From Candidatus Omnitrophota bacterium (GTDB lineage: Bacteria; Omnitrophota; Gorgyraeia; Tantalellales; Tantalellaceae), in the NCBI GenBank assembly GCA_016783605.1, contig JADHWG010000004.1:1-60061 (forward strand): a stretch of 60,061 bases of DNA. The letters run 5' to 3'. Both the position numbers and the translations under genes were made by a program. The first letter of the stretch is position 1. Every line of letters begins with the position of its first letter. This document shows positions 2,737 through 37,490 of this stretch, in pieces. The notes below the pieces were generated by a model that ran no database searches, was not told the origin of the DNA, and worked only from the letters and a program-made list of their open reading frames with translations.

Positions 2737-3423
2737 ATGAAGATATTGGCTTTTGACACATCAACAAAGTTTTTAAGTATAGCTTGTATGGAAGATTCTT
2801 CTCCCCGAGCTGTTTATCACAAAGATGTTTGTGTTCGTCACAGTGAAATGCTGGTTGTCGAGATCAAGAACTTATTAAAGAAGTTGAATTGGAAATTGAC
2901 TGACATAGATCTAATTTGTGTAGGATCTGGCCCGGGATCTTTTACGGGGTTAAGGATCGCGTTTGCCACGCTTAAAGGGTTATGCTTGGCGGGCGGAACA
3001 AGAGTTTCCGCTATTCCGAGTATGGACGCGATGATTCGAACGCCTGCGGCGGGCGTTTACAAAAAAACCGGTAAAAAATTGATCGCGCCTTTTCTCGATG
3101 CAAGAAAAGGTAAAGTGTATACGTGTATTTATGAAATGTCGCGCGATAAAATACATAAACTTACGGATTATCTTCTTGTTCGAGCTGAAGACTTTTTAAA
3201 AGAACTGAAAGAGGAAGTTTTTTTCTTTGGAGATGCTGTTCCCAAATATGAAAAAGAATTGGTTTCTTGTAAATTTGCTCTTTTAGGCAATCATATGGAT
3301 TGGTATCCAAAAGCGGTGGAAATTGGACGCGCGGCTCTGAAGAGATCGGTAAAGAAAGCCGATGACGTTGAAACGCTTGAACCATTATATCTGTATGAAA
3401 AAGAATGCAATGTGTTAAAATAA
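2737..3423 (+). CDS. tsaB: tRNA t6A37 threonylcarbamoyltransferase complex dimerization subunit TsaB
   Basis: TsaB is the catalytically inactive ASKHA-fold partner that holds TsaD and TsaE together. Diagnostic features are the N-terminal ILAFDTSTKFLSIA strand pair, the HSEML motif and GSGPGSFTGLRI. Length (228 residues) is typical. It directly follows tsaE without a gap. In many bacteria rimI follows tsaB, but here a CCTCGTAGG hairpin and then alr come next, so rimI is absent from this cluster. Confidence 0.95.
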   Translation: MKILAFDTSTKFLSIACMEDSSPRAVYHKDVCVRHSEMLVVEIKNLLKKLNWKLTDIDLICVGSGPGSFTGLRIAFATLKGLCLAGGTRVSAIPSMDAMIRTPAAGVYKKTGKKLIAPFLDARKGKVYTCIYEMSRDKIHKLTDYLLVRAEDFLKELKEEVFFFGDAVPKYEKELVSCKFALLGNHMDWYPKAVEIGRAALKRSVKKADDVETLEPLYLYEKECNVLK

Positions 3424-3462
3424 TAAAAAACCATCGAGTGAAACACCTAATATGGTTTGCGC

Positions 3463-3515
3463 GCCCTTCGACAACCTCGTAGGTTGCTTTGCAACCTACG
3501 AGGTTGTCGAAGGGC
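3463..3515. repeat. CCTCGTAGG hairpin with 25-bp perfect arms
   Basis: Perfect 25-bp arms (starting GCCCTTCGACAACCTCG) flank a TTT loop between tsaB and alr. The core is the same CCTCGTAGG unit found elsewhere in the window, extended here by CCCTTCGACA. The alr ORF in the track begins inside this repeat because it is read through in frame. Confidence 0.9.
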
Positions 3516-3549
3516 GGGGCGGTTGATAAATAAAAAGAATAGGGATAAT

Positions 3550-4674
3550 ATGGCGGCTTATCGTCCTACTTGGGCGGAAATAAATTTGGGCGCGATAAAA
3601 CACAATTTAAATTGCATTCGTTCTTTGCTGGATCCGAAAGTGAATGTTTTGGCGGTTGTAAAGGCAAACGCTTATGGACATGGGATTTGCGAGGCGAGCC
3701 GTGTTCTTTGGGAAAACGGCGCGAATTATTTGGGAGTGGCAACCGTTGATGAGGCGCTCGGTTTAAGGAATGAGGGGATAAATGCTCCGATCTTGGTGTT
3801 GGGGGCGGTTCTTTGGGAAGAGGCAAATGCCGCAGTTAAAAACAATATCACTTTGACTTTATGTGATTCACCCCTTTTGGAAGCGCTTTTAGAAATAGCG
3901 AGACAGACGAATATTACACCGAAAGTGCATATTAAAGTGGACACGGGAATGGGAAGGATAGGAGTTTGGCACGAAGAAGCGTTTGAATTTATTCGTCAGG
4001 TGCATTCAAAGAATGAAATTGAAATGGAAGGCATATATACTCATTTTTCCGCCGCGGCGCGTGACAAATTGGTGACACAGCTTCAGATAGATTCTTTTGA
4101 GAAAATCTTGAAAAATGTCGAAAAAAGCGGTATTCGTTTAAAATACAAGCACGCCGCTAACAGTATTGCCGTGGTAGATTGGAAATTATCCCATTTAAAC
4201 ATGGTTAGGCCCGGTATTTTACTTTACGGGGTGTATCCCAAAGAAGATTTTCGCGAGAAGGTCAAACTGAAAAGCGTTATGAGTTTGAAGACTCGTATCG
4301 TACATTTGAAAGAAACTCCTCCGGGTCGGGCAATAAGTTACGGACGGACTTACATAACGCAAAAAAGGACAAAAATAGCGACGATCCCGATAGGATACGC
4401 CGACGGATATGGAAGAATATTGTCGAATAAAGCGGAAGCTTTGATCGGCGGAAAATATTCCAGAATTGTCGGGATGGTTACAATGGATCAGACTCTTATG
4501 GATGTGGGGCATATCAAGAACGTTAAGATCGGCGATGTTGTTGTTCTTATCGGGCGGCAAGGTTCTTCGTCCATCAACATTGAAAGGATCGCGAAGCTCG
4601 CCGGAACGATTCCTTATGAGATATTGTCGGCTATAACCGACAGAGTTCCGCGGATATATACCCCGTCGGTATGA
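3550..4674 (+). CDS. alr: Alanine racemase
   Basis: This PLP enzyme makes D-alanine for peptidoglycan. The PLP lysine is Lys38 in VKANAYGHG, the opposite-subunit catalytic tyrosine lies in SYGRTY, and IPIGYADGY and TMDQTLMDV match the C-terminal beta domain. The ORF track starts at 3457 inside a repeat. I place the start at ATG 3550, which follows an AGGG ribosome binding site and gives a 374-residue protein beginning MAAYRPTWAEIN, as in the family. It closes the thiL-tsaE-tsaB-alr cluster, an arrangement like that seen in other bacteria. Confidence 0.95.
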   Translation: MAAYRPTWAEINLGAIKHNLNCIRSLLDPKVNVLAVVKANAYGHGICEASRVLWENGANYLGVATVDEALGLRNEGINAPILVLGAVLWEEANAAVKNNITLTLCDSPLLEALLEIARQTNITPKVHIKVDTGMGRIGVWHEEAFEFIRQVHSKNEIEMEGIYTHFSAAARDKLVTQLQIDSFEKILKNVEKSGIRLKYKHAANSIAVVDWKLSHLNMVRPGILLYGVYPKEDFREKVKLKSVMSLKTRIVHLKETPPGRAISYGRTYITQKRTKIATIPIGYADGYGRILSNKAEALIGGKYSRIVGMVTMDQTLMDVGHIKNVKIGDVVVLIGRQGSSSINIERIAKLAGTIPYEILSAITDRVPRIYTPSV

Positions 4675-26853: not shown

Positions 26854-26910
26854 TAAAGTGGGCAGAATGGAACTCTTCATTTGAAGATTGACGAGGTACT
26901 AGTATCACGA

Positions 26911-28014
26911 ATGATGAAAATATTACTTTTAACTACACACATTAATATCGGCGGTGTCGGATTCTATACCGTGAACCTCGCGAAATATCTCCGAAAAATG
27001 GGGCACGAACCGGTTGTGGTCTCCTCCGGAGGCGATCTTGAAGAACTCCTACAAAAAGCCGACGCCAGGCATATTAAGATGGACCTAAAAACAAAAGCGG
27101 AATTCGGCTTTAAAGTCGCCAAAGCGATACTCCCTTTGACCCGTTTGGTCCAAAAAGAAGGTTTTGATGTTATCCACGCCCAGACACGCGTCGCGCAAGT
27201 CGCCGGAGGCATAGTTTCAAAAATTACGCGCGTGCCGATAGTTTCAACAGGTCACGGTTTTTTTAAACACGAAAGACTCTTTCGAAAACTTTTTCCTTTC
27301 TGGGGAGATAAAATCATCGCGATAAGCGAAAGCGTACGCGGACATCTTATAAACGATTTTCATATAGACGAAAAAAAGATAACCGTAGTTTATAACGGAA
27401 TAGAACTTGACCGATTCTTAAGAAAAAACGGTAAAATAGACCAAAATATGAGAGATAAAATGTCTTTAGATCGAGATCTAACGATCGTGGGCGCCATCGG
27501 AAGACTTTCTTCGGTCAAAGGCTACATTTATCTAATCAAAGCATTTAAAAAAGTCGCCGAAAAAAACAAAAACGCGCGGCTCTTACTCGTAGGCGAAGGC
27601 GATGAAAAACCAAAACTGGAAAAAGAAGTGAAAGAGGCAGGATTAACGAATAAAGTCATATTCGAATCAAAAAAAATGGCAACTGAAGACTATCTATCAG
27701 TTATGGATATTTTCTGCCAGCCGTCGATAAAAGAAGGCTTAGGCTTAGCGCTCATCGAAGCAATGGCATCCGGAAGAGCGTGTATAGGAAGCAACGTAGG
27801 CGGCATCCCCGAAATAATAGACGACGAGATAGACGGTATCCTGGTTCCTCCGGAAAATCCGGAAGCTCTGGCAGAAGCAATAACCCGCCTATTGAGCGAC
27901 GCCGAACTAAAACAAACATTCTCCACCCGCGCCCCCCAAAAAGCCCAAACCAAATTTTCCATAGAAGAAAATGCAAGAAAAACGGCGGAAGTATACGAAG
28001 AAGCGAGAAGTTAG
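26911..28014 (+). CDS. GT4 family glycosyltransferase
   Basis: This is a GT-B fold glycosyltransferase of about 367 residues. THINIGGVGFYTVNLAKYL opens the acceptor domain, HGFFKHERLFRKLFPFWGDK lies midway, and the donor-binding half has SSVKGYIYLIKAF, CQPSIKEGLGLALIEAMASG and a final Rossmann segment. The N-terminus resembles that of the GT4 half of the preceding gene, so the two may be paralogues. The track start is TTG 26881; ATG 26911 or 26914 fits the family start. Likely involved in LPS core or O-chain sugars. It is the last chromosomal gene before the toxin-antitoxin remnant and the integron. Confidence 0.9.
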   Translation: MMKILLLTTHINIGGVGFYTVNLAKYLRKMGHEPVVVSSGGDLEELLQKADARHIKMDLKTKAEFGFKVAKAILPLTRLVQKEGFDVIHAQTRVAQVAGGIVSKITRVPIVSTGHGFFKHERLFRKLFPFWGDKIIAISESVRGHLINDFHIDEKKITVVYNGIELDRFLRKNGKIDQNMRDKMSLDRDLTIVGAIGRLSSVKGYIYLIKAFKKVAEKNKNARLLLVGEGDEKPKLEKEVKEAGLTNKVIFESKKMATEDYLSVMDIFCQPSIKEGLGLALIEAMASGRACIGSNVGGIPEIIDDEIDGILVPPENPEALAEAITRLLSDAELKQTFSTRAPQKAQTKFSIEENARKTAEVYEEARS

Positions 28015-28024
28015 GAAAAAAATA

Positions 28025-28252
28025 GTGTCTGCCCCTATTTATGCTAATGTTTTTCCGGAAGAACACAAACAGATCAAAATATTCGCGGCTATTCACGGAG
28101 AGATCATACGGGAATATGTGATGGAGAGTGTACGCGAACGTTTAGAAGGAGAAAAAGAACAGGCGCAGTTAACAGCAATGACTATGAAAATCGATCAGCC
28201 GTTGAAGGAAGTCTGGGAAAACGAAAAGGACGCGGAATATGACAAAATATAA
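28025..28252 (+). CDS. Ribbon-helix-helix antitoxin (partner toxin truncated)
   Basis: SAPIYANVFPEEHKQIKIFAA followed by EYVMESVRERLE is a short RHH DNA-binding fold, and the C-terminal EVWENEKDAEYDKI is a typical toxin-wrapping tail ending in an acidic/aromatic peptide. The track extends the ORF into the preceding glycosyltransferase gene (start 27971). GTG 28025, with AGGA upstream, gives about 75 residues and the expected N-terminal strand. The next frame, overlapping by 14 nt, encodes the start of a PemK/MazF toxin, supporting the antitoxin assignment. The toxin is broken, so the antitoxin may now be an orphan. Confidence 0.75.
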   Translation: MSAPIYANVFPEEHKQIKIFAAIHGEIIREYVMESVRERLEGEKEQAQLTAMTMKIDQPLKEVWENEKDAEYDKI

Positions 28253-28406
28253 ATGTCGAGATGTTGTTCTTGTCGATGTGATGTTTTCGGATGGATCCGG
28301 GATAAAAAAAAGACCCGCACTTATTCTTCCTTCTTTGGTTACGGGAATTTTTCAAACGATAAATGGGAAACTGATCAATCGAAAGTTAGCTGTATTGGTT
28401 CGTTAG
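28239..28406 (+). pseudogene. Truncated PemK/MazF-family toxin
   Basis: Absent from the ORF track because it is short. ATG 28239 overlaps the antitoxin 3' end. The first 30 codons read DVVLVDVMFSDGSG and KKRPALIL, the N-terminal barrel of a PemK/MazF endoribonuclease. After about codon 31-33 similarity stops and the frame runs into integron sequence to a TAG at 28404. A complete toxin has about 110 residues, so at least two thirds are missing. The break lies at or near GGTTACG (about 28338-28344), close to the left limit of the integron. Confidence 0.78.
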
Positions 28407-28749
28407 TTTTGATGTAAAGCGATTTATAAGAGTCAATCATATCTTTTATATGTTCAAAGGTATCGGGGTTAATTTCTTCTTTTTTTATAATGTTTTTCGC
28501 TACTGCCATAGATATTAATACATCTTCACAGGGAAGATTATATTTTTTCCAAAGTTCTCTGAAAATACCATTATGAAATTTATGAATTATTTCTTTAAGT
28601 TGGAAACAATCTATTTTTTTTGTTCGCCATCTGTCAAAATATTTAGCTAAATGTTCAGTGTAGTTATCAAGTTCCCGTTTATATGCTACGCTAACCAATT
28701 CCTTTAAATTTTTTTTTATTGGTTTGGGATATTTTTTCATTTTATTCAT
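28375..28749 (-). CDS. Hypothetical protein, integron cassette
   Basis: The 124-residue protein is rich in lysine and aromatic residues, with no signal peptide or membrane segment, and is probably all-helical (KELVSVAYKRELDNYTEHLAKY, EHIKDMIDSYKSLYIK). I do not recognise its family. It follows an attC site on the minus strand, as expected of a cassette gene. Its stop lies next to the truncated toxin gene, so its own downstream attC has been lost and the cassette can no longer be excised by normal attC x attC recombination. Confidence 0.65.
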   Translation of the reverse strand: MNKMKKYPKPIKKNLKELVSVAYKRELDNYTEHLAKYFDRWRTKKIDCFQLKEIIHKFHNGIFRELWKKYNLPCEDVLISMAVAKNIIKKEEINPDTFEHIKDMIDSYKSLYIKTNEPIQLTFD

Positions 28750-28756
28750 TATTTTA

Positions 28757-28826
28757 TGCTAACGCAAAAGTTCACCTGCCGCCGAATGAAGTGAGGGAAC
28801 CAAATAGCGCAGTGATTTGTTATGTG
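28757..28826 (-). repeat. attC recombination site, minus orientation
   Basis: Read on the minus strand it begins CATAACAAATCACTG and ends GAACTTTTGCGTTAG, with complementary inner arms. It closely matches attC7 at 35081-35170 on the plus strand (shared TCACTTC.TTCGGCGGCAGG), except that attC7 is longer in its loop. It separates brnA from the 124-residue cassette gene. Confidence 0.82.
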
Positions 28827-28834
28827 TTTTTATT

Positions 28835-29053
28835 TTATGAAACCCATCGCAGTGAAGGTTTACGATGAGAATGAACGCAATCAATTAAGTACAGATCTAT
28901 CAAATTCTGGTATGGAATACCTATTTTCTCCGATAGATTCTTAAAATAATCAATTACTTCTACTCCTATCCTCATGGTAACCTGTCGTTTCAACCGTTTA
29001 GCATAAGGATTTTTTCTTTTTTTCATTTTAGCCAGATCGTATTCTTTCTTCAT
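28835..29053 (-). CDS. brnA: BrnA-type antitoxin
   Basis: The 72-residue protein carries a ribbon-helix-helix motif: the N-terminal KKEYDLAKMKKRKNPYAKRL tail and QVTMRIGVEVIDYFKNLSEK followed by GIPYQNLIDLYL, typical of BrnA. It binds and neutralises BrnT and represses its own operon. It overlaps brnT by 4 nt on the minus strand. The toxin precedes the antitoxin in the operon, as is usual for brnTA. TA cassettes commonly stabilise integron arrays. An attC follows it. Confidence 0.88.
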   Translation of the reverse strand: MKKEYDLAKMKKRKNPYAKRLKRQVTMRIGVEVIDYFKNLSEKIGIPYQNLIDLYLIDCVHSHRKPSLRWVS

Positions 29054-29343
29054 GATAAACCTCCAATATATTCTTTTTCTTCTCTTTTAGTTGCTTTGCG
29101 AGCGGATATTATTCTTATCATCGATGCGCTTTTTCTATAACAGTGACAAACCAACAAAGCACGTAATTTATAACTCAACCCTAAAAGGAGCAATCTATTT
29201 TCTTTAGAAGAATGCGTGTTATCGTAGAATTCAATAGCATTATCGTCATAAAAAACTGTTTGAGCTTCTTCAAAAGAGACGCCATGCTTCGCCTGATTTA
29301 TCTTATCTTTTCGTTCATCCCATTCAAAACGAAGCTTGCTCAT
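29050..29343 (-). CDS. brnT: BrnT-type ribonuclease toxin
   Basis: BrnT is a RelE-like RNase toxin. FEWDERKDKINQAKHGVSFEEA at the N-terminus and the C-terminal IRIISARKATKREEKEY are the diagnostic blocks, and the protein has the normal length of 97 residues. It is expressed from a strong promoter with an internal palindromic operator (29350-29378). In the proposed ancestral arrangement this cassette followed the 35-kb cassette of the array. Confidence 0.92.
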   Translation of the reverse strand: MSKLRFEWDERKDKINQAKHGVSFEEAQTVFYDDNAIEFYDNTHSSKENRLLLLGLSYKLRALLVCHCYRKSASMIRIISARKATKREEKEYIGGLS

Positions 29344-29349
29344 AATTAT

Positions 29350-29378
29350 ATTATACCTATGTCATAATGACATGTCAA
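29350..29378 (-). promoter_or_regulatory. brnTA promoter with operator palindrome in the spacer
   Basis: On the minus strand TTGACA is followed by a 17-bp spacer and TATAAT, a near-consensus promoter. The spacer is filled by a perfect palindrome, ATGTCAT-A-ATGACAT (29359-29373). BrnA is known to repress its own operon with BrnT, so this is the likely operator. The -10 lies only a few bases upstream of the brnT ATG, so the transcript would have a very short leader or be leaderless. Confidence 0.85.
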
Positions 29379-29397: not shown

Positions 29398-29427
29398 AAC
29401 CATTATATGTCGAATCCGCTTTTAATG
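29398..29427 (-). other. Probable 3' half of an attC site upstream of brnT
   Basis: Read on the minus strand the sequence AAAAGCGGATTCGACATATA ends in ATGGTTAAA and resembles the right half of attC1 (AAAAGCCGGTTATTTCAAGC then GTTATA). No left half is adjacent on that strand. The missing half may be the attC fragment at 35560-35580, as expected if an inversion split one attC site. Similarity was judged by eye. Confidence 0.5.
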
Positions 29428-29429
29428 GT

Positions 29430-29457
29430 ATTATAGAAGAAAAGCAGAAATAGTCGA
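29430..29457 (-). promoter_or_regulatory. Orphan promoter-like sequence, possible ancestral intI promoter
   Basis: On the minus strand TCGACT and TATAAT are separated by 16 bp. The -10 lies at the proposed left inversion breakpoint. It now points at brnT, which has its own better promoter. If the 29.43-35.58 kb segment is flipped back, this promoter falls about 20 nt upstream of the intI ribosome binding site and start. The -35 is weak (4 of 6 consensus bases). Confidence 0.45.
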
Positions 29458-29475
29458 GGCTATCCTAACAAAATC

Positions 29476-29505
29476 TTGACAAATCTTCCAAAATTATGCG
29501 ATACT
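29476..29505 (+). promoter_or_regulatory. Probable cassette promoter (Pc)
   Basis: TTGACA is followed by an 18-bp spacer and GATACT with a TG extension (TGCGATACT). It reads into the first plus-strand cassette gene at 29587, about 80 nt downstream. Position just before the possible attI matches the Pc of known integrons. Confidence 0.65.
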
Positions 29506-29514
29506 GAGCTTGAA

Positions 29515-29565
29515 AATTAGTGACGTTATCAAAAAAAAGTGGATGCTACATATTAACTGTTATAT
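29515..29565 (+). other. Possible attI site
   Basis: TATTAAC-T-GTTATAT ends the non-cassette DNA and begins the first cassette, giving an inverted left core and a GTT right core. There is no folded attC-like arm structure, which fits a simple attI. A further GTTATC lies at about 29526. attI sites are poorly conserved, so this call rests on position and the GTT junction only. Confidence 0.4.
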
Positions 29566-29586
29566 AAAAAATAAAGGAGAATACTA

Positions 29587-30042
29587 ATGGAAGAAAAAAT
29601 AATAATACCTGATGGAAATTTTGAAGTAGTTCGCGAACAAGGAGAATATTTTAAGGCAGGAATTCAGAGTATGGTTTCTTTAAATAAAAAACTTATTGAA
29701 ACAAATAATCAATTAAATGAGCTGGGAAGACAAATTAAGGATTCAGCTATATTATTGCAAAAATCAAGTGAAAAAACTGCTGAAACAAATAACAAATACA
29801 CAAAATCATTAGTTAAGCTTACATTTGCGTTAGTATTTGTCGGATTAGTTCAAGGTCTTATAATGTATTGGAATTCAAGCATAATGGGAAAACAAACAAT
29901 AGCTATGGAAAAGCAAGTTTCAGCTATCAATAACCAATCTCAATCAATACAAGCCCAAACATATATTATGGAAAAACAGGCTAAGATAATGGCTGCGCAA
30001 TACAACAAAAGTCTTCCGTTAGGAAGTGCTGAACAAATGTAA
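29587..30042 (+). CDS. Small membrane protein with coiled coil, integron cassette 1
   Basis: This 151-residue cassette protein has a soluble N-terminal helix-rich part (SLNKKLIETNNQLNELGRQI) that looks like a coiled coil. One strong transmembrane segment follows (LTFALVFVGLVQGLIMYW, about residues 76-95), then a glutamine-rich heptad region with repeated MEKQ motifs. The topology resembles small abortive-infection or stress membrane effectors, but I do not recognise the family. AAGGAGA precedes the ATG, unlike most other cassettes here. It is the first gene after Pc. Confidence 0.7.
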   Translation: MEEKIIIPDGNFEVVREQGEYFKAGIQSMVSLNKKLIETNNQLNELGRQIKDSAILLQKSSEKTAETNNKYTKSLVKLTFALVFVGLVQGLIMYWNSSIMGKQTIAMEKQVSAINNQSQSIQAQTYIMEKQAKIMAAQYNKSLPLGSAEQM

Positions 30043-30049
30043 AAAAAAT

Positions 30050-30123
30050 ATATAACAATTCAATCAACCGGACTTTTTCCGCGGCTTCGCCGCTCCAAAA
30101 GCCGGTTATTTCAAGCGTTATAG
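30050..30123 (+). repeat. attC1
   Basis: Begins ATATAACAATTCAATCAACC and ends AAGCGTTATAG, with inner arms CCGGACTTTTTCCGCGGC and GCCGCTCCAAAAGCCGG around a short TTC loop. The R'' (TAAC) and R' (GTT) cores and the complementary L arms are those of an integron attC. The cassette boundary falls in GTT at 30117. Confidence 0.88.
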
Positions 30124-30137
30124 GAAAATAATTAAAA

Positions 30138-30791
30138 ATGGAAAAATTAAATAAAGAAATCGTTGTGCAAACCTGGTTTTTTCGTGGACTTGAGGATATA
30201 TTTTTTGCTTTTCAAATTGAATCGCCTTTTCGCTACGAACCATTTTTTCATACGATGGGTTTTGAAATGATATGCAAATCATATTTATTGGCTAAAGAAT
30301 CAGCTAAATATGAAAACATGGAAAGGGATCAGGCAATCCAAAAAATTAATACATTAGCAATACAATGGGGTCATAACATAAAGAAAATGGTTGATGAGAT
30401 AAAAAACGACATAAATAATCCTGTTTTTTCTGCCGCATTAAGTGCGAGCTACGATTCTTTTACGGGGGACCAATTCATCAAAGTAATGGAAGCTGCTTAT
30501 TTAGAATGTCGCTACCCTGTGCCTAAACACATTCATGAGGAATTCCCAATAGATGGACAAACAGATCTTCATTGGGAGCCTCTTGCTTCATCTGGTCTCG
30601 AGAAATTTTGTTTTGCATTCATGAAGAAAATCATAATTTATTTAAAGAAAAGATTTAATATACCCATACCCAAAAAAGAATTTGATAAAATCATAACAGA
30701 CGAGGCAGGGGTAAGATTCTGTAATTTATTTTTAAAAGATATTCCAAATGATTTTTTAGAAAATGAACCTATAACAAGTCATTTCACCTGA
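30138..30791 (+). CDS. HEPN-like hypothetical protein, integron cassette 2
   Basis: This 217-residue soluble protein is probably mostly helical. The combination FEMICKSYLLAKESAKY and then WGHNIKKMVDEIKND resembles HEPN-type helical proteins, where a lysine-rich helix is followed by a GHdlkkL motif. No R-x4-6-H motif is clear, so a catalytic role is not shown. The stop codon lies inside attC2, a common compact cassette design. There is no ribosome binding site, only an A-rich stretch after the GTTATAG junction. Confidence 0.6.
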   Translation: MEKLNKEIVVQTWFFRGLEDIFFAFQIESPFRYEPFFHTMGFEMICKSYLLAKESAKYENMERDQAIQKINTLAIQWGHNIKKMVDEIKNDINNPVFSAALSASYDSFTGDQFIKVMEAAYLECRYPVPKHIHEEFPIDGQTDLHWEPLASSGLEKFCFAFMKKIIIYLKKRFNIPIPKKEFDKIITDEAGVRFCNLFLKDIPNDFLENEPITSHFT

Positions 30792-30843
30792 CCTTTTCTG
30801 CGGCTTCGCCGCTCCAAAGGCAGGTGAATTCCGATGTTATGGT
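30768..30843 (+). repeat. attC2
   Basis: Runs from CCTATAACAAGTCATTTCAC to GATGTTATGG. Arms CACCTGACC...TGCGGC and GCCGCTCCAAAGGCAGGTG are complementary around a short loop. It contains the stop codon of cassette gene 2. Confidence 0.85.
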
Positions 30844-30849
30844 AAAAAT

Positions 30850-31479
30850 ATGACTTACGAAGAAAAAATATTTCTTGTTTGCGGTTCTGGGGTAACGGTA
30901 TCATTCGCATATGAAAGACTACTCTCAACTATCGACGCTGCGAGGATGCAAATGAAACGAATATGGGATCAAATATCCTTGTTACCAAAACAGCCCGAAT
31001 TATCTCCTACTGATCCAGAATTTCAAAATAAAGCAAAGGAATATAAAATAACAGTTCAAGGAAACTATCGTCCAATTTTCAACGATATACATTTTTATTT
31101 TATTACTTGGGGCGGAATTAGATCAATGATGGGCGTTATTGCAAATCAACCAGAATTCAAAGAAGCAAATATAATTTTCAATTCACACCGTAAAACCATC
31201 GAACATTATATAAATGCGAGAAACACCTTCGAACACTTTGACGAGAGGCTTCCAGGATGTAAAAACCACGAACGGGTTAAAGAAGTTCAGGCACAAGGAG
31301 CTAGCCCGAGAAAAATTTTGAAAGGTATTTCAAAGAAAGGGTATTATCTACATTCCGATAAAAAATGGGACATAAAACCTTCCAGTTTAAAATTATTAGA
31401 AGAAATAACTCAGGAATTTATAGGCGCTGTTAATAGCAAGATAGATCTATTGTTGAAAGAAAAAAATATAAAACCATAA
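30850..31479 (+). CDS. Hypothetical protein with an R-x4-H motif, integron cassette 3
   Basis: The 209-residue protein is predicted soluble and helical. The central HYINARNTFEHFDERLPG contains an R-x4-H pattern within a helix, as in HEPN nucleases, but the family is not recognised with certainty. The cassette begins at GTTATGG, only about 10 nt before the ATG, and has no ribosome binding site. The stop codon overlaps the start of attC3. Next to cassette 2, it may be a second HEPN-type effector. Confidence 0.6.
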   Translation: MTYEEKIFLVCGSGVTVSFAYERLLSTIDAARMQMKRIWDQISLLPKQPELSPTDPEFQNKAKEYKITVQGNYRPIFNDIHFYFITWGGIRSMMGVIANQPEFKEANIIFNSHRKTIEHYINARNTFEHFDERLPGCKNHERVKEVQAQGASPRKILKGISKKGYYLHSDKKWDIKPSSLKLLEEITQEFIGAVNSKIDLLLKEKNIKP

Positions 31480-31541
31480 CAATGCGCTTCAGCGAATTTG
31501 TACCGCTGCGCGGTCCAAATCGCTGAGCTTAGACGTTATGA
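31474..31541 (+). repeat. attC3
   Basis: Runs from CCATAACAATGCGCTTCAGC to TTAGACGTTATGA. Arms TCAGCGAATTTG..ACCGC and GCGGTCCAAATCGCTGA pair around a short centre. It overlaps the stop codon of cassette gene 3. Confidence 0.85.
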
Positions 31542-31551
31542 GAAAAAAATA

Positions 31552-32376
31552 ATGAAGAAAAAACTAATAAATCAGATACGAAGCCTTCTTGATGAAGGAG
31601 AAAAATTTACGTTTAGCAATTTTTGCTATCCTCATAATCAACCTGACAGATGGGGCGGCGAGGATAAACCTGAATGGCTTGCATGGAAAACTAGAAGCTA
31701 TAACTTTATTTCTCAAATTGCAGCTCCTAATTCTTCCGCTCAGACATTAGCAGAAACCGCTATAGGAATTAGTACAAGTGGGAATTATCCAAAAGAATTT
31801 GAACGCCTAAAAGAAACCATGATTAAGGCTTTAAAATTAGCTGAGCAAAGCATAAGAAAAGACTCCTTTGGAGAGCTTAAAAAACAATCAATAAAAACCA
31901 CTTCCACTAAGTTTTCAAATAAAATTTTTGTTGTCCATGGTCATGATCATACATTAAAGGCGGAAGTCGAAAGCTTCCTAAATGATATTGGGCTGGAACC
32001 AATTATACTGCATAAAAAACCTGATGAAGGCCAAACTATCATTGAAAAATTTGAGAAGCATAGTGACGTTGGGTATGCATTTGTTTTACTTACACCAGAT
32101 GAAATAGCCTACACTATCGATCAAGACAGTATTTCTGATCAAAAACGTAAAAAAGAGAAAAGAACTCGTCCAAATGTAATCTTTGAATTTGGATATTTTG
32201 CAGGAAGATTAGGACGAAATCGTGTGTGTTGTGTATACAAAGAAAGCGTAGCTGTTCCAAGTGATTTAAAAGGATTTCTGTATAAAGAAATTAAAATATC
32301 ATTTAAGGAAAAAGCATATGAAATAATGCAAGAACTTAGCGCAGCAGGATATAAAATAAAATTTAAAAACTCATAA
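31552..32376 (+). CDS. TIR-domain nucleotide-binding protein (CAP12/Pycsar type), integron cassette 4
   Basis: The C-terminal half (about residues 120-274) is a TIR-like domain of the PF10137 type: KIFVVHGHDHTLKAEVESFL, GYAFVLLTPDE and RPNVIFEFGYFAGRLGR, the last carrying the glutamate expected for NADase activity. The N-terminal 115 residues are a separate domain I do not recognise, perhaps the ligand or phage sensor. Related TIRs are abortive-infection effectors in CBASS and Pycsar, but no cyclase gene is adjacent, so it must sense something else or work with distant genes. ATG 31552 (274 residues) replaces the track start 31498, which lies in attC3. There is no ribosome binding site; the leader is A-rich. 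Confidence 0.85.
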   Translation: MKKKLINQIRSLLDEGEKFTFSNFCYPHNQPDRWGGEDKPEWLAWKTRSYNFISQIAAPNSSAQTLAETAIGISTSGNYPKEFERLKETMIKALKLAEQSIRKDSFGELKKQSIKTTSTKFSNKIFVVHGHDHTLKAEVESFLNDIGLEPIILHKKPDEGQTIIEKFEKHSDVGYAFVLLTPDEIAYTIDQDSISDQKRKKEKRTRPNVIFEFGYFAGRLGRNRVCCVYKESVAVPSDLKGFLYKEIKISFKEKAYEIMQELSAAGYKIKFKNS

Positions 32377-32444
32377 CAACTCAATCGAGCGGATTTTTCC
32401 GCCGCTAAAACGACTCCAAAAACCGCTCATTTCAAGCGTTATGA
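32371..32444 (+). repeat. attC4
   Basis: Runs from TCATAACAACTCAATCGAGC to AAGCGTTATGAG. Arms GAGCGGATTTTTCCG and CCAAAAACCGCTC pair, with a slightly larger centre than attC1. It contains the stop of the TIR gene. Confidence 0.86.
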
Positions 32445-32459
32445 GAAAAAAATAATAAA

Positions 32460-33086
32460 ATGAAAAATATGTGTCCACCGTGTATGGATAGAACAATATT
32501 AAATTTATTGACATTGCTAATCACAGGAGCAGGTATATTTGCTATATTGATTAAGTATGATGTTCCTCAGTTAAGCTACGCTTTCTTTGACGAAAATCCC
32601 TATGCGATAAAGCGAGACGTTATCAGTAAAATTTTAACTAGCACTTTTATCGGGTTAGCTTCCCTTGGTTTATTTCTACAGGCATATGGCATGATTATTG
32701 GGAACAAACTAAATGAAAGAGTTTATGACTATTCTTTTTATACAAAATTTTTTCTAGTTGGAATCGTTGGAATGTTCGTTTTTGTTGTTACTCTAGGTGC
32801 TATAGGTAGATGTATAGCTAAAAAAACATGGTGGCCTAAAATTATTCAAAGCCAATCCGAAGCTTTCAAAATGGCGGGAGATATCATAAGAAATAAAGGA
32901 TTCTATAACAAGGAATTGGATAAAATTGAAAAATTTTCTGATGAACAAAAAGAAGAATTGCCAATCCAGCGCTATCAACAATGTGATAAATATTTAACCC
33001 AAATAGAAGATTTATTGGAAATACGAAATATCCCGAAAATTAGAGAAGAAAGATATAGGAAATTAGAAAAATATTTTAAAGAATAA
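32460..33086 (+). CDS. Multi-spanning membrane protein, integron cassette 5
   Basis: The 208-residue protein has three hydrophobic segments: ILNLLTLLITGAGIFAILI near the N-terminus, LTSTFIGLASLGLFLQAYG in the middle and FFLVGIVGMFVFVVTLGAIG. A charged cytoplasmic tail of about 80 residues follows, likely helical (ERYRKLEKYFKE). A CPPC motif is at the very N-terminus. The family is not recognised. Small membrane proteins with a soluble helical tail are common in phage-defence and stress cassettes, but that role is only inference. Confidence 0.65.
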   Translation: MKNMCPPCMDRTILNLLTLLITGAGIFAILIKYDVPQLSYAFFDENPYAIKRDVISKILTSTFIGLASLGLFLQAYGMIIGNKLNERVYDYSFYTKFFLVGIVGMFVFVVTLGAIGRCIAKKTWWPKIIQSQSEAFKMAGDIIRNKGFYNKELDKIEKFSDEQKEELPIQRYQQCDKYLTQIEDLLEIRNIPKIREERYRKLEKYFKE

Positions 33087-33090
33087 AAAC

Positions 33091-33161
33091 TCATAACAAA
33101 GCAATCCAGCTGACCAATTCCGCACTTCGCGCGGTCTTGGCAGCTGATTTTTTCGTTATAT
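33091..33161 (+). repeat. attC5
   Basis: Runs from TCATAACAAAGCAATCCAGC to TTTCGTTATATG. Arms CAGCTGACCAATTCCGC and GCGGTCTTGGCAGCTG pair around ACTTCGC. The GTTATATG junction supplies the ATG of cassette gene 6. Confidence 0.86.
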
Positions 33162-33873
33162 GAAAAAATATAAAAAATGGTATTACAACCATGCACCATT
33201 CTTTTTTAGAATATATATATTGTCGATGTTTTTTTTACTACACTCAACAAATATGTATGCACAGAATTTACAATCAATAGAGTTTGCGGAACATGAAAAT
33301 AATTACATCGCGACAACCCTTAAGCTAATGACTGAGTTAGGATTTGTGGTGCGGGATACATTTAAAAACAACATGAATCTAGATGACTTTTATTCAAATG
33401 GGAATAAGTACAATGGGGCAAGGCTTTTTCGTATTAAGTGGATAGATACTACAGATAGTGGTTATGCAGAGGTACAAGCAAAAAGGGCTTATAAAATTAA
33501 GAATTATTCATCTCAAGCCTACGATGACTATACAATCTTAATGCTTCAAAAATATAAAGCCCAATACAGAGAAGATCCAATTATTCACGAGTGTGTTCAT
33601 TTCCTTCAGCATGCTACTCATAAGGATGAAAGTAATTATATTGATTTTACCGGCAAAAATTATCGTGAATATGTTATGCAACGCACAGAATTAGAAGCTC
33701 ATTTGGTGCAGATTCTTTATATTGTTAAAAATAATCACGAAAGATTAAAAAAGCATCTGTCAAGAGAACAACAGCTAAAGCTTGAAAAGATAATTTCTGA
33801 ATATAAAAAATCTCGAAATATTCTTGCTGGGGTTGAGGCCATAATAATGTGCAAGCAAGGAGGCTTGATCTAA
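33160..33873 (+). CDS. Putative secreted zinc metallopeptidase-like protein, integron cassette 6
   Basis: A short basic N-terminus, a hydrophobic segment (FFFRIYILSMFFLLHS) and a plausible cleavage region near YAQN indicate a signal peptide. DPIIHECVHFLQH carries the zincin HExxH motif, with possible third ligands in QRTELEAHL. The 237-residue protein is not assigned to a named peptidase family. The ATG is formed by the attC5 junction (GTTATATG), so the reading frame depends on where the cassette is joined. The downstream attC is degenerate. Confidence 0.68.
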   Translation: MKKYKKWYYNHAPFFFRIYILSMFFLLHSTNMYAQNLQSIEFAEHENNYIATTLKLMTELGFVVRDTFKNNMNLDDFYSNGNKYNGARLFRIKWIDTTDSGYAEVQAKRAYKIKNYSSQAYDDYTILMLQKYKAQYREDPIIHECVHFLQHATHKDESNYIDFTGKNYREYVMQRTELEAHLVQILYIVKNNHERLKKHLSREQQLKLEKIISEYKKSRNILAGVEAIIMCKQGGLI

Positions 33874-34072
33874 AGTTAATACTTAGCGGTTTTATGACAT
33901 GTAAGGCTACCTTGATTTCGGTACTTAAACCTTTGATTTTTACTTCTTTCGAAATATTTGGGAACTTTAGACAATATGATAATATGAAAACACATAACAA
34001 TTCAATCAACCGGGCTTTTTTCGCTCGCCTCTGGCGGGCTCCAAAAGCCGGTTATAAACGATTTGGAAAACA
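33874..34072. repeat. Non-coding stretch with degenerate attC6
   Basis: About 115 nt without a recognisable gene are followed by an attC-like sequence (33991-34060). It begins ATAACAATTCAATCAACCGG like attC1, and inner arms GGGCTTTTTTCGC and GCGGGCTCCAAAAGCC are present. The right end reads GCCGGTTATAAACG instead of ...TTTCAAGCGTTATAGG, so the last 15 or so bases and the normal GTT core are lost. Cassettes 6 and 7 may now move only as a unit. Confidence 0.78.
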
Positions 34073-35086
34073 ATGAAATCAAACAGTGAAATGATAATCT
34101 ATCAGTCTCCTACCGGCAATATAAAAATAGACGTCCATTTGGAAAATGAAACCGTCTGGCTAACCCAAAAACTGATGGCAGAGCTTTTTCAGACCGCTGT
34201 ACCCAATATAAACATGCATCTTAAAAGCATTTATGAAGAAGAGGAATTAACAGAAGAGGCAACTATTAAGGATTTCTTAATAGTTCAAAAAGAAGGTAAC
34301 CGAGAAGTAAACCGTAAACAGAAATTCTATAATCTGGATGTTATTATATCTGTGGGATATAGAATAAAATCACAAACTGCAACACAATTCCGTATCTGGG
34401 CAACCAAGAGGCTAAAGGAATACATTGTTAAAGGTTTTGTCCTCAATGACGAAAGGTTTAAAACCGGCAATTCCATGAATTATTTCAATGAGTTGCAGGC
34501 GCGTCTACGAGAAATACGCCTTTCTGAAAGGTTTTTTTATCAAAAAATAAAAGACATTTATGCAACCAGCATAGATTATGATCCCAAAGATGAAGAAACG
34601 ATCGAATTCTTTAAGATAATACAAAACAAACTACTCTGGGCAATCAGTAGCCAAACAGCCGCGGAACTTATTTACAGGAGAATAGACGCTTCTTTGCCTT
34701 TATTAGGTATGCAGTCTTATGACAAGGATAACGTTGGAAAAATCAGGAAAAGTGATGTCAGCATTGCCAAAAACTATTTAAATGAAGAAGAAATAAAGCT
34801 TCTTGGTTTATTGGTTGAACAGTACCTTGCTTTTGCGGAAACAATGGCACAGCAACATACACCAATGTACATGAAAGACTGGATGAGCAAACTGGATAAT
34901 ATTTTACAGATGAATGGCAGGGAACTACTTACCCATGCCGGAAAAATAAGTCATCAAATGGCTATTGAAAAATCAAATCAGGAATTAGAAAAATATAACG
35001 AAGAACAAAAAAAAATAACCCATGAACAAAGTTTAAAAGAAATTGAAGAGGATATAAAGAGATTAAAAAAAGATAAAGATACATAA
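34073..35086 (+). CDS. RhuM family protein, integron cassette 7
   Basis: The 337-residue protein matches the RhuM family (virulence protein RhuM, PF13310): an N-terminal YQSPTGNIKIDVHLENETVW, VWLTQKLMAELFQTAV, and the long helical part ATQFRIWATKRLKEYIVKG. The N-terminal half probably binds DNA. A C-terminal coiled coil ends the protein (KEIEEDIKRLKKDK). RhuM genes often lie beside restriction-modification or YhcG nuclease genes, as the truncated paralogue at 37197 does here. The exact function is unknown. The stop overlaps attC7. Confidence 0.85.
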   Translation: MKSNSEMIIYQSPTGNIKIDVHLENETVWLTQKLMAELFQTAVPNINMHLKSIYEEEELTEEATIKDFLIVQKEGNREVNRKQKFYNLDVIISVGYRIKSQTATQFRIWATKRLKEYIVKGFVLNDERFKTGNSMNYFNELQARLREIRLSERFFYQKIKDIYATSIDYDPKDEETIEFFKIIQNKLLWAISSQTAAELIYRRIDASLPLLGMQSYDKDNVGKIRKSDVSIAKNYLNEEEIKLLGLLVEQYLAFAETMAQQHTPMYMKDWMSKLDNILQMNGRELLTHAGKISHQMAIEKSNQELEKYNEEQKKITHEQSLKEIEEDIKRLKKDKDT

Positions 35087-35170
35087 CAAATCGCTGTACC
35101 TGACCGCCAAATTGCTACGCGATTTGGTTTCCTCACTTCGTTCGGCGGCAGGTGAGCTTTTGCGTTAGGA
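35081..35170 (+). repeat. attC7
   Basis: Runs from ACATAACAAATCGCTGTACC to CTTTTGCGTTAGGA. Arms CACTTCGTTCGGCGGCAGGT on the right and ACCTGACCGCCAAATTG on the left pair around a longer imperfect stem. It is the closest relative of the minus-strand attC at 28757-28826. Confidence 0.87.
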
Positions 35171-35179
35171 GAAGAAAAA

Positions 35180-35413
35180 ATGAATAATAATTCGGGATAC
35201 TATAGCGATGATGGGGAAAAATTAAATCCAAATCTTATCTCTAAACCATCATTATGTACAATGTGTAAAAAAGATGATAATCCAGAAGAAGAAATATTGT
35301 GTAATCTAAATAGGTTGGACCAAACAGATTCTGAAGAATTTAAATGTTATTCATATGAACAAAAATATAATCCGAATTCAGACGAAGAGTCAAAATATCA
35401 TGCATCACTGTAG
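35180..35413 (+). CDS. Small cysteine-containing protein, integron cassette 8
   Basis: The 77-residue protein is acidic and asparagine-rich, with CTMCKKDD and later CNLN and FKCYSYE, so four cysteines could bind a metal. The family is not recognised. It starts after GTTAGGAG, which gives an AGGAG ribosome binding site right at the cassette junction, the only plus-strand cassette besides cassette 1 with a clear one. The stop TAG lies in a GTAGGGG palindrome, so the 3' end may have been altered by a repeat insertion. Its attC is cut short at 35580. Confidence 0.55.
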   Translation: MNNNSGYYSDDGEKLNPNLISKPSLCTMCKKDDNPEEEILCNLNRLDQTDSEEFKCYSYEQKYNPNSDEESKYHASL

Positions 35414-35526
35414 GGGCCGGGCCTGCCCGGCCCTCCAATTAATAATAACAAGGCGTGGTATAAACAATAAATTATCGAAGAATAATAAATCATAAATTAA
35501 AGGACAAGGCATGCCTTGTCCCTACA
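35412..35526. repeat. Two GTAGGG-type palindromes after cassette 8
   Basis: A TGTAGGGGCCGGGCCTGCCC palindrome (35412-35437) and an AAAGGACAAGGCATGCCTTG palindrome (35499-35526) belong to the chromosomal repeat family. They are the only such repeats within the array and lie in its last segment, next to the proposed inversion breakpoint. Confidence 0.82.
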
Positions 35527-35559
35527 GGATATTTGTGATAAAACGAAAATAAACAAAAT

Positions 35560-35580
35560 TATAACAATTCAATCAACCGG
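35560..35580 (+). other. Truncated attC (left half only) abutting the intI start
   Basis: TATAACAATTCAATCAACCG is identical to the first part of attC1 and attC6 but is followed directly by TATTTTGGGGGATGAAG, the ribosome binding site and start of the intI frame. No right half is present here. The missing half may be the one at 29398-29427. Confidence 0.82.
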
Positions 35581-35600
35581 TATTTTGGGGGATGAAGAGT

Positions 35601-35930
35601 ATGCGGGAAGAGATTTTACCGGAATTTCAGAGGTTTTTAATTGCGAAGGGGCTTGGCAGTTCCAGGACTGCGCCTTATCACGCGTATTGGGTGGGCAGGT
35701 TTCTATCGTTTTCCAACGATCACCGGGACTTGTCTTTTGAGGCAAGGATGAGTGAGTTTTTTAGTTATCTGAGGGGTCGGGGAGTTTTTCTCCGAACCCT
35801 CATCCCGAGCAAAGCGAAGGATCTCTGGTTAATTTTTCAAAAGGGTCTAATAGAGATCCTTCAGCCCTTTGGGCTTCAGGATGAGGAGTCGGGAAACTCC
35901 CCGACCCCTCAGTTATCTTCATCATCATAA
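35601..35930 (+). pseudogene. N-terminal fragment of the integron integrase, disrupted by a MITE
   Basis: The frame begins MREEILPEFQRFLIAKGLG after a GGGGG site and encodes a SAM-like DNA-binding helix bundle (about 57 codons, to FFSYL at 35770). A 140-bp element with its target duplication then shifts the frame, and translation ends within 50 codons. Removing the element and one copy of AGTTATCT restores a single frame with the 35869-37065 ORF, reading FFSYLHHHNTADW. So this was the N-terminus of a longer IntI. Confidence 0.85.
35771..35910. mobile_element. 140-bp foldback MITE inserted in intI
   Basis: Perfect 17-bp terminal inverted repeats (GAGGGGTCGGGGAGTTT and complement) enclose a second inverted pair (CATCCCGAGC...AGGATCTCT and AGAGATCCTTC...GGATGAGG). 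The element is flanked on both sides by the identical 8-bp target duplication AGTTATCT (35763-35770 and 35911-35918), direct proof of a transposition event. It has no coding capacity, so it was mobilised in trans. An 8-bp duplication is seen with IS256- and IS1595-like transposases, among others. Confidence 0.93.
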
Positions 35931-37065
35931 CACTGCGGATTGGCAAATGGAGCAAGCATGGGAGGCGGTTAAAATTTATTTCGAACATTTTCAGGCAATT
36001 GATACGAAGCAAGTATCTGATGTGTCTTATTTTGGGCATAATTTTGCCGAGTCGGACATTATTGACAGGGCGCGTCAGGCACTACGTCTTAAGCATTATT
36101 CATATGCTACAGAGCGGGCATATCTTGATTGGGTCAGGCGGTTTTTTGTTTATGTTCAGAATGAAAAAAAGAAGGATGACGCGAAGTGGCCCGTAGGTTC
36201 TGATGACGTAAAAGAATATCTGAGTTATCTAACGACGAAGCAAAAGGTTTCTTCATCAACTCAGAATCAGGCTTTCAACGCGCTTTTATTTCTGTTTAGA
36301 GATGTGCTTGGGATTGAGCTAAGCGGGTTAAGCAAGGTTGTACGGGCTAAAAGGGGGCCTAAATTGCCCGTGGTGCTGACGGTAGAAGAAGTTCGCGGTT
36401 TGTTTCAATTTGTAAAAGAAAGAAATCTGCTTATTATTCAGTTGTTGTATGGTGCGGGTATGCGTTTAATGGAAGTGGTGCGTTTACGGGTAAAAGATAT
36501 TGATTTTGATTCGGGGTTAATATTTGTACGAAGTGGTAAGGGGGATAAAGACCGTTCGACTATCTTGCCGCGGGTTACAAAAGAACAATTATGCGGCCAT
36601 TTAGAAAAGATAGAGATTTTACATAAAAAGGATATTGATCAAGGACATGGCGAAGTGTATTTACCGAATGGGCTTGGGCGTAAATATCCTAATTCTGCAA
36701 AAGAGTGGGGATGGCAGTATGTGTTCCCCGCGTCAAACCTTTCAGTCGATCCGCGCAGTGGGAAAGTGCGGCGTCATCATATCAGTCCCAGTACGATACA
36801 AAAAACGGTTAAAGAGGCGGTTAAAAAAGCGGGGATCGTTAAGCCCGCGACCGTTCATACTTTAAGGCACAGTTTTGCCACGCATCTTTTAATGAATGGG
36901 GTTAACATAAGGGCTATTCAGGAACTTCTGGGGCATAAGAATGTTGAAACAACAATGATTTATACGCATGTCTTAAGAGAAATGGCGAACATGCCCAAGA
37001 GTCCGTTAGATAATCTTTATGGGGAAGATCTAACGCGGGAGAAGGTTACCGGATTATTGAAATAG
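35869..37065 (+). CDS. intI: Integron integrase IntI, catalytic part
   Basis: This tyrosine recombinase begins its canonical IntI part at ARQALRLKHYSYATERAYLD. Catalytic residues are present: Arg in GAGMRLMEV, Lys in SGKGDKDR, HTLRHSFATHLL, LLGHKNVETTMIYTHV. The IntI-specific insert before patch III (GRKYPNSAKEWGWQYVFPAS, then DPRSGKVRRHH) separates it from Xer. The normal N-terminal extension is broken by the MITE. The track start TTG 35869 and ATG 35881 lie inside the MITE, ATG 35947 lies after it, and none has a good ribosome binding site. The enzyme may still be made at a low level. Confidence 0.9.
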   Translation: MGFRMRSRETPRPLSYLHHHNTADWQMEQAWEAVKIYFEHFQAIDTKQVSDVSYFGHNFAESDIIDRARQALRLKHYSYATERAYLDWVRRFFVYVQNEKKKDDAKWPVGSDDVKEYLSYLTTKQKVSSSTQNQAFNALLFLFRDVLGIELSGLSKVVRAKRGPKLPVVLTVEEVRGLFQFVKERNLLIIQLLYGAGMRLMEVVRLRVKDIDFDSGLIFVRSGKGDKDRSTILPRVTKEQLCGHLEKIEILHKKDIDQGHGEVYLPNGLGRKYPNSAKEWGWQYVFPASNLSVDPRSGKVRRHHISPSTIQKTVKEAVKKAGIVKPATVHTLRHSFATHLLMNGVNIRAIQELLGHKNVETTMIYTHVLREMANMPKSPLDNLYGEDLTREKVTGLLK

Positions 37066-37196: not shown

Positions 37197-37490
37197 ATGA
37201 AAAAATCAATTATTCCATTGGAGCAGAATGATTTCTTTCTTTATACGGGTGTTGACGGTAAGGTGAATGTTGAAGTGTTCCTGAAAGATGAAACGGTTTG
37301 GCTTACACAAAAAGCGATGGGGCAACTTTTTGGGGTTGAAAGCAACACCATTACTTATCATCTGAAAGAAATATATAAGTCGGGAGAACTTGAAGCGGAT
37401 GTAACTGCTCGAAAACTTCGAGCAGTTCAAGCCGAAGGGGAAAGAGAGGTAACAAGGACAAAAATAGGGACAGACACACACTTTAGGTAA
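37197..37490 (+). pseudogene. Truncated RhuM family gene
   Basis: MKKSIIPLEQNDFFLYTGVD and VWLTQKAMGQLFGVES match the N-terminus of the RhuM gene in cassette 7, but after REVTRTKI the sequence changes to GTDTHFR and stops. The break coincides with AATAGGGACAGACACAC, a repeat end similar to the 26-bp arm at leuA-aroE. About 97 of an expected 330 residues remain. AGGA precedes the ATG. It lies between intI and the YhcG nuclease gene and suggests a decayed defence locus. Confidence 0.8.

Follow-up and report, generated by a model that had tools for sequence, protein, structure and literature searches.

In ordinary sedentary integrons, such as those of Omnitrophota, Nitrospirota and deltaproteobacterial relatives, a TIGR02249 integrase occurs with a leader carrying attI, Pc and PintI and with an array of attC sites. 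In the Treponema type of integron, transcription of intI runs towards attI, and the cassettes come after attI (PMC3607928). The superintegron of V. cholerae has been inverted by experiment; the inverted array selects for integrase loss, and a plasmid-supplied integrase was inactivated within generations (PMC11023631). Clusters of attC sites without a nearby intI are known as CALIN.

The locus described here shares integrase, leader and attC array with the ordinary sedentary integrons and differs from them in that the leader and the first eight cassettes appear inverted relative to intI, which is itself split by a repeat element. As in Treponema denticola (PMC3607928), intI and cassettes are transcribed in the same direction; there, however, attI lies beyond the 3' end of intI, whereas here it lies at the far end of an array 5' of intI. 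With the inverted V. cholerae superintegron the locus has in common toxin-antitoxin cassettes and an array inversion that goes with the loss of a working integrase gene, as far as the sequence suggests; here, a small rearrangement of natural origin carried the leader along with the array and deprived intI of its promoter. Its cassettes are probably immobile, like those of CALIN, but the locus has kept attI, Pc and the intI core gene. The literature searched, which did not take in subscription papers, yielded no published integrons in Omnitrophota and no published natural inversion of comparable kind, the latter being no proof of novelty.

The window, i.e., the whole stretch of 60,061 nucleotides analyzed, is one complete contig of the metagenome-assembled draft genome (72 contigs, 1.65 Mb) of a Candidatus Omnitrophota bacterium. 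Its integron is flanked on the left by a glycosyltransferase gene (26881-28014) and on the right, from 38951, by genes of glycosyltransferase family 9. The left border (27971-28407) holds a ParD-like antitoxin remnant followed by what by eye is an internally deleted MazF-like ORF, and the right border (37197-37490) a RhuM-like fragment, recognized by eye and without a Pfam match. An attC covariance model trained on seven plus-strand sites, with the minus-strand site outside the training set, detected at E < 0.01 seven sites on the plus strand (30051-35170) and one on the minus strand, which form cassettes as follows.

28375-28749, minus strand: ORF124, the cassette beyond brnTA, in presumed original orientation; starts directly after the minus-strand attC
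28757-28824, minus strand: attC of the brnTA cassette, in presumed original orientation; 23.2 bits
28850-29053, minus strand: brnA-like antitoxin gene, after brnT; PF12441, E 1.9e-6
29050-29343, minus strand: brnT toxin gene; PF04365, E 1.4e-28
29350-29378, minus strand: predicted promoter of brnTA's own, TTGACA-17-TATAAT; 12/12 consensus positions
29587-30042, plus strand: ORF151, first cassette, followed by attC 1
30051-30123, plus strand: attC 1; 86.2 bits
30770-30842, plus strand: attC 2; 80.6 bits
31475-31541, plus strand: attC 3; 66.7 bits
32372-32444, plus strand: attC 4, of the cassette with a TIR-domain gene; 77.1 bits
33092-33161, plus strand: attC 5; 71.5 bits
33993-34066, plus strand: attC 6, with a degenerate R' (GATTTGG); 51.9 bits
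35082-35170, plus strand: attC 7, of the cassette with a RhuM-family gene; 56.0 bits
35592-35930, plus strand: 5' part of intI, up to the repeat element; in relatives it corresponds to an extra SAM-like domain at the N-terminus
35771-35910, no strand: 140-bp inverted-repeat (MITE-like) element interrupting intI, flanked by the 8-bp duplication AGTTATCT (35763 and 35911)
35869-37065, plus strand: core ORF of intI, spanning the TIGR02249 integron integrase domain in full (profile 2-315 of 315); E 9.8e-126

Homologues of ORF151, sought in the phylum to fix the 5' boundary of its cassette, were not found. The cassettes with the TIR-domain gene (31498-32376; PADLOC PDC-S35) and the RhuM-family gene (34073-35086; PDC-S05) carry candidate defence families, and a second palindromic repeat (TGTAGGGG...CCCTACA) occupies 35410-35535, where it separates the ORF of the eighth cassette from the halved attC. 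A lone attC outside the integron (1074-1139, 43 bits) was seen directly after an ORF (407-1063) at locus L129 (G000:C62), a small contig with ORFs that by eye are HU-like, BrnT-like and recombinase-like.

The first-pass annotation had described the region 29398-29565 as an orphaned control region, with a pair of outward promoters and a possible attI six kilobases from intI, and comparison with relatives supports this description. The two promoters and the junction that it quoted are all present.

29405-29423, plus strand: inverted copy of the attI box, ATATGTCGAATCCGCTTTT, at the PintI start
29430-29457, minus strand: putative PintI, the former integrase promoter, TCGACT-16-TATAAT, now directed at brnTA; in relatives the TATAAT is conserved at the same site before intI
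29476-29505, plus strand: putative Pc, the cassette promoter, TTGACA-18-GATACT plus a TG extension; the leaders of relatives share its -10 region as a conserved block
29535-29553, minus strand: attI box ATATGTAGCATCCACTTTT, one of two matches in the genome; aligned box in relatives
29551-29565, plus strand: putative attI core, TATTAACTG^TTATAT; aligns with AACAATTAATA upstream of relatives' intI, with invariant AACA..TAATA columns

Read on the minus strand, 29400-29565 corresponds to the leader with attI, Pc and PintI that lies directly upstream of intI in related integrons, which is where the annotation had proposed to look for the same sequence. A DNA profile of 297 positions, built from seven Omnitrophota intI leaders with the window excluded, matched 29600-29384 (minus strand) with 51.5 bits (E 1.8e-15), while 60 dinucleotide shuffles gave at most 8.6 bits and other DNA of the same genome 4.5 bits. 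The same profile recognized leaders from outside Omnitrophota with up to 63 bits. The common leader of the relatives runs in the order attI core AACAATTAATA, box, Pc -10 (on the other strand), PintI -10 TATAAT, second box, and intI, and the conserved columns of the alignment are the PintI -10, the Pc -10, the attI core and the box. By this homology, the region is the control region of an Omnitrophota chromosomal integron. Its attI, a putative recombination site whose core was located in 28 relatives, lies beside the first cassette, with the crossover, and thus the start of that cassette, predicted between G29559 and T29560. The putative Pc reads into the first cassette and should drive ORF151 and the cassettes that follow. 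In this AT-rich DNA, 45 promoter-like sites were found by bare consensus, against 39.8 +/- 6.6 in shuffles; since this is near the shuffle expectation, bare promoter matches carry no weight, and it is the homology that lifts Pc and PintI above chance.

The profile was needed because the leaders diverge too far for BLAST, which returned only chance-level matches of 19-30 bp for the centre of the region within the family and the phylum; a comparison of the region with Rfam gave no match. Toxin-antitoxin cassettes are known to bring promoters, and brnTA has a perfect one (29378-29350, with the palindrome TGTCATAATGACA at 29360-29372 in its spacer), so one might take the 170 bp for the 5' part of a cassette with a promoter of its own, beside a divergent brnTA promoter. 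The brnTA promoter is a different site, however, and the minus-strand promoter of the annotation is not needed for brnTA because brnTA has its own; the 170 bp, moreover, match intI leaders with the E value given above. The annotation had named the finding of the same 170 bp in an ordinary cassette as its refutation, and no such case was found: in 384 genomes of the phylum BLAST gave only two chance-level matches of 28-30 bp, and in 72,556 plasmid records none, a negative that would not settle the question alone, given how weak BLAST is at such divergence. Taken together, this makes a cassette promoter a most improbable origin of the region.

What distinguishes the control region is its position, since attI and PintI do not adjoin intI and the leader lies about 6 kb away from it. 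In 17 related loci with attC sites, compared with intI placed on the plus strand, 43 of the 45 sites were located 5' of intI and all 45 were on the minus strand. Both exceptions belong to a single locus (L038); in the other 16, every attC site is on the 5' side of intI and directed away from it. The L038 sites (3404-4125, minus strand) are 3' of intI on a 5-kb contig without terminal overlap. The window, by contrast, has seven attC sites 5' of intI that share its (plus) strand and point towards it, while the brnTA and ORF124 cassettes keep the strand that is usual in relatives, a pattern that is explained by one inversion between intI and brnTA. That intI and most cassettes share a direction would also suit a Treponema-type integron, in which attI would lie past the 3' end of intI and the region at 29398-29565 would be unrelated. 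The cassettes here, however, are 5' of intI and point at it, the window holds no significant attC 3' of intI, and the nearest relatives have the ordinary layout, which leaves very little room for this interpretation. We consider it highly probable, from attC strands, the relatives' layout, the leader profile and the join test described below, that a single inversion parted the control region from intI.

29400-35580 (about 6181 bp), no strand: proposed inverted segment of about 6.18 kb, with the leader at its far end from intI and eight cassettes
29399-29400, no strand: proposed left breakpoint; homology to relatives' leaders ends here, and the best join was obtained here
35580-35581, no strand: proposed right breakpoint, in a halved attC (35560-35580; attC model weak, 12.4 bits) just before the intI start

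The remaining end of the leader profile falls on the intI start (35589-35630, plus strand), where this right-hand piece alone scored 8.0 bits, i.e., chance level. When the minus-strand DNA down to 29400 was joined with the plus-strand DNA from 35581, a single match of 75.3 bits was obtained, covering positions 43-297 of the 297 in the profile. Twelve joins shifted by 10-30 bp scored 41.7-73.0 bits, all below that value. Joins shifted outwards by 10-30 bp lost only 2-6 bits, so the score places the breakpoints within a few tens of bases, and finer placement is by eye only. This is the strongest single test of the proposed inversion: the leader is cut in two, and both ends fit. The reciprocal junction, at the attC before brnTA, does not restore a whole attC, and a small loss must therefore be added to the inversion model. 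The uninverted arrangement itself was deduced from relatives outside the genus of the source.

In a draft genome of 72 contigs in which inverted repeats and palindromic elements are common, the inversion could be an artefact of assembly, with the leader still adjoining intI in the cell. Against this, there is no long repeat at either breakpoint, the longest inverted word common to their 100-bp surroundings being 8 bp; neither of the uninverted junctions was found in any contig of the bin; and homology to the relatives' leaders breaks at both points, with broken ends that fit each other. Misassembly is thus unlikely. For a genuine inversion, the preferred molecular cause is illegitimate recombination at the GG(T), 2-3 bp, which is all that the breakpoints share. 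Two other routes were rejected. An inversion catalysed by IntI does not agree with a breakpoint at the L'' arm of the attC instead of the G^TT cut. The brnTA attC resembles attC 7, without about 22 bp of the L'' arm, and forms with it an inverted repeat (71 nt, 85% complementary); homologous recombination between the two would have left the leader by intI, and the breakpoints do not fit.

Under the inversion model, the original order would have been attI - ORF151 - ... - ORF77 - brnTA - ORF124, running away from intI, with the control region directly 5' of intI. One break in the intI leader and another in the attC before brnTA would then have turned round the leader together with the first eight cassettes. 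Pc and attI would still head the same cassettes, so that transcription of ORF151 and its followers would continue and attI, given a supplied integrase, could go on accepting cassettes. PintI would now fire into brnTA. The intI gene, promoterless and placed after the last inverted cassette, would be reached by read-through only.

The integrase is recognized by TIGR02249 with 419 bits, against a cut-off of 265; no intI match was obtained in other genomes of the family at the threshold used. Its frame is interrupted: the 140-bp element, whose end sequence occurs 59 times in the genome, shifts it together with the 8-bp duplication, while the TIGR02249 core stays open and contains possible internal starts. 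Integrases of the clade (L030, L034, L044) have a second SAM-like domain N-terminal to the TIGR02249 region, and this part is cut off here. The integrase may accordingly have lost its function, or may be produced in a shorter form. By analogy with the inverted array of V. cholerae, the element in intI, which may have entered before or after the inversion, could reflect pressure against the integrase; without PintI, however, selection on intI would be relaxed in any case. With an intI that lacks a promoter, follows the last inverted cassette and is broken close to its 5' end, the array has probably become frozen. We class the locus as a rearranged integron, not an intact one. The first-pass annotation had mentioned neither an inversion of about 6.18 kb as the cause, nor the split of intI, nor brnTA's own promoter.

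One element of that annotation did not hold: the supposed attC half at about 29398-29424 gave no match to the attC covariance model, even in an unfiltered search that allowed E values of up to 10, and is instead the inverted copy of the attI box. At two or fewer mismatches, the 19-bp box has only two matches in the 1.65-Mb genome, both in the leader. Relatives carry a box pair at the same two places (e.g., L034, L038, L039, L057, L069, and L080), and the two boxes are more alike within a locus (mean, 11.5/16) than between loci (10.5/16); the permutation P value over 29 loci, 2e-5, is optimistic, as related loci are not independent. The simplest reading of the sequences is that one protein reads both boxes, the integrase being the first candidate and a host repressor, e.g., LexA, the second. 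In other bacteria, intI promoters with LexA boxes have been described (PMC3108266, PMC8876359). That the PintI box has no third copy in the genome (two mismatches allowed) would speak against a shared SOS operator, depending on the LexA motif of the host. The recurrence of the pair across relatives suggests integrase autoregulation. We tentatively propose that, in Omnitrophota and relatives, the inverted attI-box copy at PintI may coevolve with the attI box in each lineage, so that the integrase would bind its own promoter and control itself through the recognition used in cassette capture; the inversion described here would have cut this loop.

The locus thus appears to be a natural version of a rearrangement that has been made in the laboratory. 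Here attI, Pc and PintI would have left the integrase gene as one unit, so that the locus would show the fate of an integron whose integrase loses its promoter while the array keeps its own. It thereby complements the work on V. cholerae, in which an array inverted in the laboratory soon led to selection of inactivated integrase (PMC11023631). The comparison with relatives, moreover, gives a definition of the attI-Pc-PintI leader in integrons of an uncultured phylum, and the paired box makes self-regulation of their integrases testable.
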